A stretch of 45,515 nt of DNA from an uncultured Opitutia bacterium. Its GTDB lineage: Bacteria > Verrucomicrobiota > Verrucomicrobiia > Opitutales > Opitutaceae. Location: contig CAIQKV010000037.1 of NCBI GenBank assembly GCA_903872505.1, forward strand, positions 1 to 45,515. The letters run 5' to 3'. Positions within the stretch are counted from its first letter, which is position 1; every line of letters begins with the position of its first letter. Made by a program: the position numbers and the translations under genes. The notes beneath the pieces were generated by a model. The model made no database searches, was not told where the DNA came from, and saw only the letters and a program-made list of their open reading frames with translations. Below, piece after piece: positions 6,457 through 43,027 of this stretch.

Positions 6457-6815
6457 GGGGGTGTTCCGGATTCGACCCTTGGTTGGAGTGCGCCGCTGCC
6501 CTGTCGAGAGTCGGAGGTCTCTCGTAAAATCCCCTTCGAAAAACATAAATGGCAACAACGAAGAAATGCTAATGGCTGCCTAATTCAGGCTCCACGTTTG
6601 CCCGGCGACACCTGCTAGCCGGAGCGAACGACGACAGCAGGAATAGCGTGCGGAGCCGTCCGCGGTGCGCACGCCGTATCTTCAATCCGGGGACTGGCTG
6701 GAGCCTGAGCGCGCGTGATCGCTTGGTTTCGGCGAGATAAAACTCACGCTATACAAGGTAGACGCGGTGCGCGAAGGTCAGGGGCACGCGGGTTCAACTC
6801 CCGCCACCTCCACCA
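6457..6815 (+). ncRNA. ssrA: Transfer-messenger RNA (tmRNA)
   Basis: This is a one-piece tmRNA of 359 nucleotides, which rescues stalled ribosomes in trans-translation together with SmpB. The 5' end GGGGGTG pairs over 7 bp with CACCTCC (6805-6811), and the encoded discriminator A and CCA end at 6815. The conserved TTCCGGATTCGAC follows the 5' strand. The T arm is GCGGG (6788-6792), loop TTCAACT, CCCGC (6800-6804). The tag reading frame ends at TAA 6581-6583 and most simply starts at GGC 6551, giving GNNEEMLMAA. The tag ends in MAA rather than the usual LAA. The region between tag and acceptor domain is GC-rich and could form the usual pseudoknots, which I did not fold. The exact resume codon is inferred. 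Confidence 0.95.
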
Positions 6816-27657: not shown

Positions 27658-30114
27658 ATGAAGAAATTCACGATCCACGTCATCCCCAACGCCCATCTCG
27701 ATCCCGTCTGGCTCTGGGATTTTCGCGAGGGCCTCAACGAGGGCGTGGCCACCTGCCGGACGATGCTCGACCTGCTGGACGCCGAGCTGGACCTCACCTT
27801 CATCCGCGGCGAGGCGGCGATCTACGAGCACGTGCGGCGCACCGACCCCGCGACGTTTGCGCACATCAAAAAGATGATCCGCACCGGCCGCTGGGAGGTC
27901 GTCGGCGGCACGTGGATCCAGCCCGACACCAACCTGCTCGAGAGCGAGGTCCTCTGCCGGCACTACGAGGTCGGCCTGCGCTATTTCCGGGAAAAACTCG
28001 GCGTGGCGGTGAAGAGCGGCTGGCAGGCCGACTCCTTCGGCCACACCGCCGGCCTGCCCGACGTGCTCGCCGCGGGCGGGCTGGAGAATTTCGCGTTCAC
28101 CCGTCCCAACCGGGAGGATTTCATCATCAAGACCCCCGCGTTCTGGTGGCACGGCCGCGGCGGCGCGAAGATCCTGGGTTACCGCGCGCCCATCGGCTGG
28201 TACGGCTGCGAGCGCGACGAGGTCACCCGCCGCTTCGACGAACTGGTGCCGTACGCGAAAAAATCGACCCTCCGCAACATCGGCATGTTCGTCGGGCTCG
28301 GGAACCACGGCGGCGGCCCGAGCCGCCGGATCGTGGCCGACATCAAGCAATGGGCCGCGGCGCACCCGGACTTCGAGGTGCGCTTCGGCGGGCTAAACAG
28401 CCTCTTCGCCGCCCTCCGTCGCGAAGTGGCCGCGCCCGGCGGGCCAAGGATCGCCGACGTGCACGGCGAGATGAACTACTGCCAGCGCGGGTGCTACTCC
28501 GCCGTCGCGCGCTTCAAGCACGGCTACCGGCGCGCCGAGCACGAGCTGCTGCGCGGCGAGCGCACGACCGCGCTGCTGGCGCACGCCGGGATCGCCCCGG
28601 CGACGGATCTTTCCCGGCCGTGGGAATCCGTTCTCTTCAACTCGTTCCACGACATCCTTCCCGGCTCGAGCATCGAGCGCGCCTTCGATGAACAGATCGA
28701 CGAGGTCGGCGGCGCGCGTCACGCGGTGCGCCACCAGACTTTCCAAGCCCTCAACCACCTCGTGGGCCGCGTCCGCATCGCCCTGCCCGCCGTCGGCCGC
28801 GATCACCCGAAGGCCGTGCCCTTCCTTGTCTGGAACCCCCACCTGCGCCCCGTGCGGACGTTTGTCGAGATCGAGGCCTGCCTCGATCACCGGCCAATCG
28901 CCCAGTATCAGAACCGCGCCGAAAAACTGCCGCTCGAGGTGCGGGTCGGCGGAAAACGCGCCGCGTTCCAAGTCATCGAGACCGAGCACGAGTCCTTCGG
29001 CGACCTCGCCTGGCGCAAGCGCGTGGTCGTGCCGATCACCCTCCCCGCCGCCGGCTGGAATCTCGCGACGGTCGGCTGGGTCGAGGGCTCCCAGTCGCCC
29101 GCCCTGCCCCGCACCGCCACCGGACGCGGCACGTCGATCCGCAACGACTTCTACCAAGTCTCCGCCAAGCCCGGCGCGGGCGGCATCTCGGTCCGGCATC
29201 GCGGCCGTTCCCTCTTCGGCGCGCGCGGGCTGCAGCTCAGCACACTCGCCGACAACTGGGGCTCGTGGGGTTCCATGAACGAGTCCGCGCCAGGTGTCCG
29301 GCTCACCGAGGAAATCGGCCGCTGGAAGATCGCGCGCGTCGCCGTGACCGAGAGCGGGCCGCTCCGCGCCGCCCTCGTCGTGCGGCTCACGACCAATCGT
29401 GCGCATGCCGACCTGACCCTGCGGCTCACCGCCGGTGTCGAGGAGGTCGCGATCGAGGCCCGCGTCTTCACCGACCTCGAGGCCGCACGCATCAAGCTCG
29501 TGCTCCCCAGCGCCCGCACCGTCGAGTGCGAGGTCCCCGTTGAGCGCGTGAAACGCTCGATCGAGGGCGAGATCCCCGTGCTGCGCTGGCTGAAGGCTCG
29601 CAACGGCAGCAAGGGCTTTTCCCTCGTGAGCGATGTGCTCGCCAACTACGACCTCGAGGGCGGCGACCTGCGCGTCACGCTCGCCCGCGCCACGCGCTAC
29701 GCCCGCGCCGAAAACCTCGACCAATCCAAGGCCTGGTGGCGCCCGGCCACCGACCGCGGCGAGCTCCGCGAGAAACTCACGCTGCTCCCGCTCTCCGCCC
29801 CCGTCGTCGAGGCGGCCGAGCTGCTGAGCCAGCCGCCGCTCATCACGATGGCCTGGGAAAACCGCACCGGCACCCTTCCGACCTCGGGCTCGCTCGCCGC
29901 GCTCACGTCCCCCGACGTGCAACTGCTCGCTCTCAAGTCCGGCCCCAACGGACGCGGCCTCGAGTTGCGCGTGAAAAGCTACGCCAAATCGCCCCGCCGG
30001 CCCGTGCTCCGCCTCGGCCGGAAAACCATCCGTCTCGGACCCGTCTCACCCGGCGGAGTCGCGACTTTCCGCGTCACCGGCGCTGCCGCCCGCCGGATCA
30101 TGCTAGGCCGCTGA
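27658..30114 (+). CDS. Alpha-mannosidase, glycoside hydrolase family 38
   Basis: This 818-residue GH38 retaining alpha-mannosidase is zinc-dependent. The zinc-binding NAHLDPVWLW motif gives H13 and D15. The nucleophile is D125 in WQADSFGHT. The helical domain carries FNSFHDILPGSSIE, and the C-terminal half is the beta-sandwich region of the family. No signal peptide is present, so it should act in the cytoplasm on imported mannosides. The start ATG at 27658 is preferred; an upstream ATG at 27604 would translate a dispersed repeat. It lies 58 bases after DUF1330 and 14 before the SRPBCC gene on the same strand. Confidence 0.93.
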   Translation: MKKFTIHVIPNAHLDPVWLWDFREGLNEGVATCRTMLDLLDAELDLTFIRGEAAIYEHVRRTDPATFAHIKKMIRTGRWEVVGGTWIQPDTNLLESEVLCRHYEVGLRYFREKLGVAVKSGWQADSFGHTAGLPDVLAAGGLENFAFTRPNREDFIIKTPAFWWHGRGGAKILGYRAPIGWYGCERDEVTRRFDELVPYAKKSTLRNIGMFVGLGNHGGGPSRRIVADIKQWAAAHPDFEVRFGGLNSLFAALRREVAAPGGPRIADVHGEMNYCQRGCYSAVARFKHGYRRAEHELLRGERTTALLAHAGIAPATDLSRPWESVLFNSFHDILPGSSIERAFDEQIDEVGGARHAVRHQTFQALNHLVGRVRIALPAVGRDHPKAVPFLVWNPHLRPVRTFVEIEACLDHRPIAQYQNRAEKLPLEVRVGGKRAAFQVIETEHESFGDLAWRKRVVVPITLPAAGWNLATVGWVEGSQSPALPRTATGRGTSIRNDFYQVSAKPGAGGISVRHRGRSLFGARGLQLSTLADNWGSWGSMNESAPGVRLTEEIGRWKIARVAVTESGPLRAALVVRLTTNRAHADLTLRLTAGVEEVAIEARVFTDLEAARIKLVLPSARTVECEVPVERVKRSIEGEIPVLRWLKARNGSKGFSLVSDVLANYDLEGGDLRVTLARATRYARAENLDQSKAWWRPATDRGELREKLTLLPLSAPVVEAAELLSQPPLITMAWENRTGTLPTSGSLAALTSPDVQLLALKSGPNGRGLELRVKSYAKSPRRPVLRLGRKTIRLGPVSPGGVATFRVTGAAARRIMLGR

Positions 30115-35576: not shown

Positions 35577-35707
35577 GGTGGAACGCGTTGCCCCCAACGC
35601 GTTGGTTTGGAGTTGGAGCCGCGGCGCCACCGCCGCGGATGGATCCGGGACGCGGCGAGGGCGCCGCATCTCCACGATCAAGCGCATTGGGGGCAAGGCG
35701 CTCCACC
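35577..35707. repeat. Four-hairpin palindromic element between ABC permease and binding-protein genes
   Basis: The element begins GGTGGAACGCGTT and ends GGCGCTCCACC, so its tips are inverted. It holds four stem-loops with four-base loops: AACGCGTTG/CAACGCGTT (35582-35603), CCGCGGCG/CGCCGCGG (35619-35638), GCGGCG/CGCCGC (35652-35667) and AGCGCATTG/CAAGGCGCT (35681-35702, one mismatch). A further hairpin CGGGTC/GACCCG lies at 35712-35726. The outer parts match the element at 42073-42149. It resembles a REP/BIME-type cluster. Confidence 0.85.
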
Positions 35708-39407: not shown

Positions 39408-40417
39408 GACAACACCATCGCCGCGGCGTAGGGCGGCGCGGTCAGGTCCACGGTGCGCCCGGTGTGGATGGACTCGATGGCCGCCAGCATGACCGCCGTG
39501 GTCCGGCGGGCCGACCGGATGGAGCACGGCGAGGGTTGGTTATTGGCCAGCGCCGAGACGAACGCCCGGTCGATCACGGCGGCGCCGTCCTCGGGTTGCG
39601 CGGGATGCTCGGTGATTTTCTTGTCCTCGCGCGTCATGAGCGAGTTGAGCCGGTTGTAGAGGCTGAAGCTGCGCGCCCCGTCGGACTGCTGGAGCGCGAA
39701 CTTCGAGGAATGCGGCGACACCCCGCAGTCGCCCACGGCCACGTTCGCCACCGCGCCGTCCGCAAAGGTCAGCGTAATCGCCGCCGTGTCCACGATGTCG
39801 CGGGTCGGATGGTGCCGGTTGCCGCCCGCCGCGTAGACGCGCACCGGGGGCGTCGGGTGCAGGTGCAGCACCGTGTCCACGATGTGGCAGCCCTGCGACA
39901 GCACGTTGCCGCCGCCCTGCACGGGGTCGTTGGCCCAGAAGTCGGACGCCCAGTGGTCGTCGAGCACCTGCGCCACGGTGAGCGTGGGTTTCGCCAGGAA
40001 CGCCTTCGCCGCCGCCACCGCCGGGAAAAACCGCAGCTTGAAACCCGAGCTCGCGGTGACGCCCGCGCGCTCCACCGCCGCCACGATGCGGTCGCAGTCG
40101 GCGAGCGTGAGCGCGAGCGGCTTCTCCAGGAAGAAATGCTTGCCCGCCGCGGCGGCCGCCTCGGCCAGCGGCGCGTGCGTGTGGTGCTGCGTGCAGATCC
40201 ACACCGCCTCGATCTCCCGGTCGGCCCAGATCCGGGCGACGTCCGTCGTGGCGTAGTCGGCGCCGTATTTTTGCCGGAAATCCTCCGCGCGCGCCGCGTC
40301 GAGGTCGGCCACCGCGCCCAGCTTCACGCCGGCGAAGGTGGCGAGGAACTTGGCATGCTCGGCGCCGTAGCTGCCGCAGCCGATGATCGCGACGCGAATG
40401 ACCCGGGGTGTGCTCAT
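39404..40417 (-). CDS. Gfo/Idh/MocA family oxidoreductase
   Basis: This 337-residue NAD(P)-dependent sugar dehydrogenase-like protein has the Rossmann motif AIIGCGSYGAEH (residues 10-21). It carries the canonical EKP with catalytic lysine (K99, in GKHFFLEKPLAL) and the typical GGGNVLSQGCHIVDTV with its histidine in the substrate domain. In contrast to the protein at 218-1369, the active site looks complete. It is cytoplasmic. The start is ATG at 40417, and it is the first gene of the seven-gene unit, with its stop overlapping the next gene in ATGA. It may oxidise a monosaccharide released inside the cell. It is divergent from the GH106-like gene across a 105-base gap. Confidence 0.92.
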   Translation of the reverse strand: MSTPRVIRVAIIGCGSYGAEHAKFLATFAGVKLGAVADLDAARAEDFRQKYGADYATTDVARIWADREIEAVWICTQHHTHAPLAEAAAAAGKHFFLEKPLALTLADCDRIVAAVERAGVTASSGFKLRFFPAVAAAKAFLAKPTLTVAQVLDDHWASDFWANDPVQGGGNVLSQGCHIVDTVLHLHPTPPVRVYAAGGNRHHPTRDIVDTAAITLTFADGAVANVAVGDCGVSPHSSKFALQQSDGARSFSLYNRLNSLMTREDKKITEHPAQPEDGAAVIDRAFVSALANNQPSPCSIRSARRTTAVMLAAIESIHTGRTVDLTAPPYAAAMVLS

Positions 40418-40522: not shown

Positions 40523-43027
40523 GTGCGCGTTCCCTTGAAAAACCTCCCCTCCGGCCCCGACCTCGCCCCGCGCTACTACACCTTCTGGTCCATCAACGGC
40601 GCGCTCGACCAGCCGCGGCTGCAGCGGCAGCTCGCCGACTTCCGCGCCGCGGGCCTGCACGGGGTCGTGTTTCATCCGCGCTTCTATCCCGGCCAGCCGC
40701 CCTACATGAGCCCGGCCTACCTCGCCGAGGTCTCCGCCTGCATCCTCCACGCCAAGAAACTCGGGCTGCGCTTCTGGCTCTACGACGAGAACGGCTGGCC
40801 CAGCGGCACCGGCGACGGCCAGGTGCTCAAGAAATATCCCGACAGCGGCGCCTGGCGACTCGACCTCACCCCGGAGCCCACCGCCCTGTCCGTGGGCTCG
40901 TTCACGAGCCCGGGCCTCAACCACCTGTTTCCTGGATCCGGGGCCACCCCCAAAACCTGGTACCTCACGCCGCACCAGATCAACTACGTCGATTCGCTCG
41001 ATCCCAAGGTCCTGGGCCACTTCCTGGAGCTCATCCATGAACGCTACCGCACCGGGCTCGACCCCGAGGCCTTCGCGTACGTCGAGGCTTTCTTCGCCGA
41101 CGAGCCCGAGTCCGGCATCATCAAGGATCCCTTTCCGGTCGTCGCCGGCATTCCGTGGACCCCGGCCATGCCGGCGCGCCTGAAGGAAAAGCTCGGCGCC
41201 AACTTCGCGGAAAAACTCCCGCTGCTTTTCACGCGCGGCCCCGGCTATCAGGAAGTGCGCACCACCTACTGGGAACTCGTCACCGACGTGCTGATCGACG
41301 GCTTCTTCGCGCCCTACCTCGCGTGGTGCGAAAAAAACGGCAAGCAGTTCATCGGCCACGTGAAGGGCGAGGAACACCCGCTGTTCCAGCTGCCGATGGT
41401 CGGCTCCTGCCACCGCATCTTCCGCCACCTGAGCATCCCGGGCATCGACTCGCTCGAGCGCTATCCCGCGCTGGATTTCTACCCGCGGCAGGCCGCCGCG
41501 GCGTCACGCCAGTTCAGCACCGGCCGCAGCATGGTCGAGTGCTTCGGCGGCGCCGGCTGGGGCGCGTCGCCCGAGGACCTCGAGCGCTACCTGCTCTGGC
41601 TCGGCCGCAACGGGCTCACCGACTTCGTCTTTCACCTCAGCCAGTACCGCCTCGACACGCCGGCGCTGACCGACTGGCCGCCCTCCGAGCCGCTGCACCT
41701 GAGCTGGCGCGAGGCCTTTCCCGAAATGCTCGACCGCGTGACGCGCGAGCTGACCACCCGCCCGCCGGCCGTGCCCGACACCCTCGTCGTGGCGCCCTAC
41801 CGCGGGCTCATGGCCGAGTACGAGCCGTGGGAGCTGTTCCAGACCAACCAGCACGTCGCCACGACGTTCCCCGACACGCCGGCGAGCCGGATGAACACCG
41901 CCTTCCTCGCCTCGCTGGAAAAACTCAAGGCCGCCGGCATCGCCTACGACCTCACCGACGAGCGCACCCTCGAGACCGACGGCGCCATCGAAAACGGCCG
42001 CGTGCGGCTCGGTTCGGCCACGTACGCGCATCTCGTGGTCGATCCCGCCGCCATCCTGCGCGGCGATTGGAAGGTGGAACGCGTTGTCCCTAACGCGTTA
42101 ATTACCTCTGTCCTTTCAAACCAGCGGGTTGAGGGCAACCCGCTCCACCCCCAGAAAGCGGCCGCCCAGCCCCGTCCCGCCAAGGACAACGGCCCCTACT
42201 GCGAGGTCCCACTGGAGTGGCAGATCCCGGCGCTGCCGGAGAACGCGTGGCTGATCGAGCCCCGGCGCACCGCGCCCCGCGAGTACACCGCGACCTTCAC
42301 CACCGCGTTCGACGCCGCCAACCCGGCCGGGTTGCACCTGCACTTCGCCGACGACCTCGCCGAGGCGAGCCTCGACGGCCAGCCGCTCAAGCTCACCGCG
42401 GGCTACGACGGCGCCCTGGCCACCCCGCCCGCACTCGGCGCGGGTGAGCACACGCTGCGGTTTCGCACCGTGCGCGAGTTTCCCGCCAAGCCTTACGTCT
42501 GGCTCAAGGGGGCGTTCACGCTGCCCAGCCGCTCACCCTACGCGCCCGGTCCCAGCGGCACCGTCCGCACCGCCGGCCCGTTCGTCGCCGGGGTCGGGGC
42601 CGTGGCCGCCGCGGGCGAACTCGCCGCCGCCGGCTTCCCCTTTCTCAACCAGCCGCTCGTGGCCGGTTGCACGTTCATCCTCCCTGCGCCCGTCACCGCA
42701 CTGCGCTTCACCGGCGTCCTCGGCGACGCAGCGCGCGCCACCATTGACGGCCAGCCGGCCGGCTGGGCCTGGGGACCCGACTGGCAGCTGGAACTGGCGC
42801 AGCCCCTCGCCGCCGGCACGCACCTCCTTCGCCTCGAGCTGGTGCCCAGCACCTTCAATTTCTTCGGGCCGCATCATTACTACCACGGCGACTGGCACGT
42901 CGTCAGCCCGGGCCAGATCATCGGCGAGAAGAATTTCGCCGACCTGCCCGACGCGCCGGCGAACACCCACGTGCCCGAGTGGCATTTCAAGCCCCTGCGG
43001 CTGCCGGCCCGGCTGGTGGCGTGGTGA
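40523..43027 (+). CDS. GH106-like glycoside hydrolase carrying an in-frame palindromic insert
   Basis: The protein has about 834 residues. The N-terminal barrel starts RYYTFWSINGALDQPRLQRQ and has LRFWLYDENGWPSGTGDGQ (residues 80-100 region) and AYVEAFFADEPESG, patterns typical of GH106 alpha-L-rhamnosidases and relatives. The C-terminal half contains beta-sandwich domains (REYTATFTTAFDAANPAGLH). No signal peptide is present. The start is GTG at 40523 or TTG at 40535; the ORF is open far upstream antisense to the Gfo/Idh gene, which I disregard. Residues about 517-543 (VERVVPNALITSVLSNQRVE) are encoded by a palindromic repeat and are probably an insertion. Rhamnosidase activity is a guess; membership in a GH106-related group is likely. 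Confidence 0.78.
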   Translation: MRVPLKNLPSGPDLAPRYYTFWSINGALDQPRLQRQLADFRAAGLHGVVFHPRFYPGQPPYMSPAYLAEVSACILHAKKLGLRFWLYDENGWPSGTGDGQVLKKYPDSGAWRLDLTPEPTALSVGSFTSPGLNHLFPGSGATPKTWYLTPHQINYVDSLDPKVLGHFLELIHERYRTGLDPEAFAYVEAFFADEPESGIIKDPFPVVAGIPWTPAMPARLKEKLGANFAEKLPLLFTRGPGYQEVRTTYWELVTDVLIDGFFAPYLAWCEKNGKQFIGHVKGEEHPLFQLPMVGSCHRIFRHLSIPGIDSLERYPALDFYPRQAAAASRQFSTGRSMVECFGGAGWGASPEDLERYLLWLGRNGLTDFVFHLSQYRLDTPALTDWPPSEPLHLSWREAFPEMLDRVTRELTTRPPAVPDTLVVAPYRGLMAEYEPWELFQTNQHVATTFPDTPASRMNTAFLASLEKLKAAGIAYDLTDERTLETDGAIENGRVRLGSATYAHLVVDPAAILRGDWKVERVVPNALITSVLSNQRVEGNPLHPQKAAAQPRPAKDNGPYCEVPLEWQIPALPENAWLIEPRRTAPREYTATFTTAFDAANPAGLHLHFADDLAEASLDGQPLKLTAGYDGALATPPALGAGEHTLRFRTVREFPAKPYVWLKGAFTLPSRSPYAPGPSGTVRTAGPFVAGVGAVAAAGELAAAGFPFLNQPLVAGCTFILPAPVTALRFTGVLGDAARATIDGQPAGWAWGPDWQLELAQPLAAGTHLLRLELVPSTFNFFGPHHYYHGDWHVVSPGQIIGEKNFADLPDAPANTHVPEWHFKPLRLPARLVAW
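42073..42149. repeat. 77-base palindromic element inside a coding sequence
   Basis: The element begins GGTGGAACGCGTTG and ends CAACCCGCTCCACC. It forms two hairpins: AACGCGTTG/TAACGCGTT (loop TCCC, one wobble pair) and AGCGGGTTG/CAACCCGCT (loop AGGG). The first 27 bases match the element at 35577 at 25 positions. It lies within the GH106-like gene without breaking its reading frame. Confidence 0.85.

Follow-up and report, generated by a model that had tools for sequence, protein, structure and literature searches.

The window is the whole stretch of DNA that was analysed, 45,515 nucleotides from the genome of an uncultured Opitutia bacterium (G000). It contains a protein-coding gene whose reading frame passes through a short palindromic repeat, as well as a second repeat doublet. 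A tmRNA gene (Rfam RF00023) is found at 6457-6815. The features under discussion are the following.

35577..35707, + strand: 131-base REP doublet, the second in the window, outside the conserved genes and enclosing a nested pair of GGAG-tagged palindromes
40547..43027, + strand: host gene as far as protein orthology reaches, 826 aa
42073..42149, + strand: 77-base element, interpreted as a REP doublet (REPIN), with GTGG tags outwards, in frame as KVERVVPNALITSVLSNQRVEGNPLHP
42074..42099, + strand: left REP arm, GTGGAACGCGTTGTCCCTAACGCGTT, tag in codon phase 0
42123..42148, - strand: right REP arm, GTGGAGCGGGTTGCCCTCAACCCGCT, identical to the arm at the same site in genome G161
42161..42199, + strand: what may remain of an older spacer and right arm of GTAG type, agreeing with orthologue G240 at 28/39 bases, ungapped and in frame; tentative

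Orthology of the host protein extends from about 40547 through the end of the frame, and since it begins near 40547, the gene probably starts there, on the evidence of sequence comparison, rather than at 39464. The dN/dS ratio is about 0.09-0.19 in seven orthologue pairs with the linker left out, which indicates that the gene is maintained; a broken gene is unlikely, with this ratio and no stop in any of 24 orthologue rows. The GH106-like label given in the earlier note finds no support: no Pfam family was detected in the 826-aa protein at E<=1, and a 15-row profile compared with solved structures retrieved T4 lysozyme alone (E 0.5-0.6). Neither a GH106 family model nor a solved structure was thus matched, and a remote relation is possible. 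A single-sequence fold model of the protein has a mean pLDDT of 36 and is useless.

The element at 42073-42149 starts with GGTGG and finishes with CCACC, with two head-to-head hairpins between, each having an 8-base stem and a 6-base loop. Its predicted DNA fold has an energy of -19.2 kcal/mol, compared with a mean of -9.2 (sd 2.3) for shuffled sequences, none of 200 being as low. The reading frame is open across the element, and orthologues with 49-85% protein identity extend on both sides of it. The description of a 77-base two-hairpin element with inverted tips that is read in frame and adds a peptide segment is therefore borne out. No Rfam family covers the element. Its two inverted REPs (42074-42099 and 42123-42148) with a spacer are the arrangement that defines a REPIN, and the GTGG at both outer ends corresponds to the unpaired GTAG tag, or variant of it, found at one hairpin end in REPs of the GTAG superfamily. 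The most fitting reading is a genuine in-frame REP doublet of a kind already known.

The many dispersed copies of a short stem-loop that are typical of the GTAG superfamily are present as well. A 101-base query detects 26 places in G000, the query site included; a strict arm pattern (GTGGARCGCGTTGYCC) occurs 24 times and a more general one 68 times in the 3.55 Mb genome, with no match to the reversed control of either. On the search for further copies proposed in the earlier note, the repeat is not unique to this site. Within the stretches of G000 that were examined (34 entries in 33 stretches, including the window, plus 15 arms in 11 more), the left arm has five identical copies, counting the one at the site, and the right arm is the sole copy. 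These stretches gave 53 of the 68 general-pattern arms, and one entry (L282:1333) is a chance match. At the level of the family, 85 of 252 genomes contain the strict pattern and 12 of 252 a reversed-control match, one each, by hand count of the table. At least 115 stretches in public genomes have a match, and all of the 80 listed have titles that name Verrucomicrobia or one of its subgroups. A search allowing two mismatches was unspecific (88 matches vs 51 in the control). Arms with GTGG and GTAG tags co-occur in the same genomes, and two members of the genus, G163 and G164, have 46 and 64 GTGG arms, respectively. The GC-rich genome and the low complexity of linkers might allow a palindrome to arise by chance in a repetitive linker, but 68 arms against none in the control, and the failure of any of 200 shuffles to fold equally well, refute this explanation and leave it virtually no probability.

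A close relation between the element and the doublet at 35577 had also been proposed, and this holds in part. The two are 93% identical over the left 27 bases and have inverted tips, but the doublet at 35577 is 131 bases long and has a second palindrome inside. It sits upstream of a lipoprotein-like start. The GGAG-tagged palindrome nested in it is also found in a second in-frame palindromic insert, at about 2370-2440 of L282 (G000:C28), in the GH38 mannosidase gene described below; among 18 aligned orthologues, that GGAG insert is common to G000 and G170 only.

In-frame GTGG-tagged REP doublets in genes of a verrucomicrobium, Opitutus terrae, have already been published (Di Nocera et al. 2013, PMC3733652). 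There, the GTAG-20 repeats carry a GTGG tag in most copies, the inserts add 20-30 residues, and linkers are suggested to tolerate them. The present family resembles GTAG-20 in its short GTGG- or GTAG-tagged hairpin, head-to-head doublets, occurrence in Verrucomicrobia, in-frame inserts and RAYT-kind transposase, with the sequence-level comparison covering the GTGG tag and not the consensus. REPINs and their link to RAYTs have been defined elsewhere (Bertels and Rainey 2011, PMC3116915; PMC8049555). Those of Pseudomonas fluorescens likewise have an inverted REP doublet as the unit and an association with RAYTs, but are described as extragenic (PMC3116915), whereas the present doublet is read in frame in genes.

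The earlier note compared the element with the Rickettsia palindromic elements (RPE), in a different phylum. The resemblance in behaviour stands: RPE are in-frame palindromes in genes, and Rickettsia orthologues have been reported with different RPE types at one place (PMC3767692). The affiliation, however, is with REPs and REPINs having RAYT-like transposases, for which in-frame insertion in Verrucomicrobia was already on record. Membership of the RPE themselves is very improbable despite the shared behaviour, as the RPE tag is CGTC (PMC3733652) and the tag here is GTGG or GTAG; this separation is by tag and not by RPE sequence. No dedicated transposase is known for RPE, in contrast to the RAYT-like genes of the present family.

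A Y1 transposase (PF01797) was detected in 216 of 252 family genomes and in 9 of 12 in the genus. G000 gave no match to PF01797 at a limit of 0.001, a model that misses some RAYTs of this branch: of three RAYT-like proteins encoded beside the same arms elsewhere, two reach only E 0.0096 and 0.071, and the absence in G000 is consequently weak. Three such RAYTs also had no match in 269 kb of the genome's own sequence (43 stretches plus the window, out of 3.55 Mb). As no transposase was found in G000, present mobility there is unproved. In other genomes, RAYT-like genes do adjoin the same arms. Three of the 80 public contigs listed (L045, L083 and L089) have such a gene, as detected by querying with seven frames taken from loci of the genus (the L225 and L230 frames do not look transposase-like), and among 77 transposase loci two, L256 and L259, carry the same arms on both sides or nearby, with a weak match at L258. 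All five proteins score 60-72 bits with NF047646 (REP-associated tyrosine transposase), below the cut-off of 80. The suggestion that the element may be mobile can be retained as 'probably mobile'. Inverted GTRG hairpins also border some genus transposase loci (L226, L227, L230, L232 and L234), and there they are of other, varied kinds.

Comparison of the linker across species gives a more complicated history. Of the 24 aligned orthologue rows, those of G165 and G166 stop at a contig border and are excluded from the arm count; hidden REP copies were considered as a cause of these breaks and rejected, as the G165 ends overlap in the GC-rich linker and no REP is visible by eye in the ends of either. 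Strict arms are present in the linker of 9 of the remaining 22 orthologues (G000, G161, G170, G169, G171, G237, G041, G238 and G240), with the right arm only in G161 and G237 and the left only in G170 and G169. The strict left tags share phase 0 (7/7) and the strict right arms phase 1 (7/7), at nearly the same codon in the carriers. The rest of the 22 orthologous genes contain no strict arm, and the reversed control has no match. By eye, a GTAG doublet that the strict pattern does not cover is present in the linker of G037.

The search for a gap in homologues, proposed as a check in the earlier note, gives a mixed picture: some close relatives are without the repeat, and others have a different REP at the same place. 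In G167 and G168, both close relatives, the gene is under constraint without a doublet, and G163 and G164, rich in GTGG arms as they are, have no arm in this linker. The non-carrier linkers differ much in length and sequence, and a clean empty site is absent. In a tree built without the linker columns, the GTGG carrier G169 and the GTAG carrier G171 are sister to each other (100/99), and G161 (GTGG) is grouped with G167 and G168, which were scored as having none. Tag types are not clearly clustered on this tree, with 9 changes compared with a mean of 10.0 in shuffles, 48 of 200 of which were as low. A remnant of older arms was looked for in 14 comparisons, with p values of 0.001 for G240, 0.012 for G238 and 0.019 for G168, where another stretch was matched; G167 (0.097), G237 (0.105) and the other nine, G171 and G037 among them (at least 0.26), were not significant. 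Three orthologues (G238, L172; G240, L175; G037, L170) have a second GTAG-tipped in-frame insert about 100 residues past the linker, and the other rows are without it. The linker of G237 (L165) has a further insert, in frame, inside the left-arm loop.

These data are probably explained by a non-autonomous REPIN that landed in a variable linker and persisted there, its arms or doublets being replaced by other REPs with the frame kept. RAYT transposases are thought to copy such a family as single-stranded hairpin DNA. One doublet would have inserted into the linker of the host gene and may have been kept because its arms have no stop in the frame used and because the linker tolerates extra residues. 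Such doublets would then have persisted across several lineages, and arms or whole doublets, with GTGG or GTAG tags, may have been swapped for other REPs by further insertion or by exchange between copies. The arms themselves differ in the frames that they leave open: every one of the 23 distinct GTGG arms collected lacks a stop in + frames 0 and 1 and - frames 0 and 2, and the 14 GTAG arms are open in + frame 0 in 14/14 and in + frame 1 in 0/14.

Repeated independent insertion, in which a tolerant linker is struck again and again by different REPs with neither inheritance nor exchange, has slightly less than an even chance of being correct. It would account for the differing types in the sister species G169 and G171, for the linker of G239 (L168), where by eye the doublet is of an unrelated GTAG REP and the right arm is in another phase, and for a further downstream unit in G161 and G170 that matches a hairpin beside a G170 transposase (p 0.001 each). 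Similarly, of the eight arms of G041, six share the genome's own loop GACC, both linker arms among them, and the GH38 doublet of G000 is in a different left phase from those of four relatives. However, the constancy of phase at nearly the same codon argues against independent events, given that GTGG arms are open in two + frames. The right arm shared by G000 and G161 is seen nowhere else in either, and the arm at the site in G237, with a CGCG stem, is unlike most arms of that genome. Persistence of an inherited doublet with later replacement of its arms is consistent with these latter observations.

Selection for the hairpins themselves has also to be considered; they might, for instance, delay the ribosome as interdomain structures of the mRNA. 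In nine doublets, both partners have changed in 13 of 16 stem pairs, and 95.8% of cells pair, a value reached in 0 of 500 shuffles and compared with 28-43% in slid controls; these doublets were chosen for visible arms and their register was set by hand, so the result leans towards pairing. The set omits G237, whose left arm has a nested insert, G239 (another family) and worn cases. Further pair types show no excess over shuffles (428/500). Two-sided changes fit whole-arm replacement as well as selection, as arms borrowed from other REP copies would yield the same pattern, and the genes of G167 and G168 are constrained without any doublet. Selection is favoured by the location of the four supported in-frame cases described below, yet it is overall an improbable explanation.

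Four genes of G000 have an in-frame REP that is backed by orthologues or Pfam, namely the host gene and the three listed here. All four REPs are in a linker, and three are between Pfam domains.

DEAD-box helicase: REP near residue 480, between DeaD_dimer (372-429) and DbpA (545-610)
GH38 mannosidase: REP near residue 617, between the middle domain (510-615) and the C-terminal domain (690-885)
NAD synthase (L405, G000:C2), - strand: single GTAG-type arm at 254-262, in frame, between CN_hydrolase (2-254) and NAD_synthase (282-529), by Pfam

In the GH38 gene, a doublet is at the same place in 5 of 18 aligned orthologues. In the helicase, an arm-like match is found in 2 of 22 rows, G000 and, with the tag changed, G012. 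Frames of at least 300 aa were considered in the first survey and of at least 250 aa in the second, and the long frames that span REPs elsewhere in this GC-rich genome (e.g. L266, L271, L275, L281 and L286) were judged spurious by eye.

A broader reading, advanced tentatively and more doubtful than probable, is that REPs have standing landing sites in the interdomain linkers of a few genes in this bacterial family. An old doublet would have been inherited across genera and its arms overwritten from the genomic pool of REPs, so that selfish repeats rewrite the same orthologous stretch with frame and hairpin kept, and sister species come to differ. In-frame REP doublets are themselves already known; what is new is the history of a site across species, with changes of type at one linker. 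Here one linker was compared across genera, a comparison that the available text of the O. terrae study (PMC3733652) does not include. No paper on REP turnover in one linker of Verrucomicrobia was found in a literature search that had most subscription journals outside its range. The locus provides a multi-species example of a selfish repeat turning into, and remaining, protein sequence, and orthologues with GTGG, GTAG, other or no REP in one linker permit direct tests of insert neutrality and of sequence exchange between REP copies. The window itself also encodes, at 27685-28710, a protein distantly related to the GH38 mannosidase (28% identity, E 2.1e-23).
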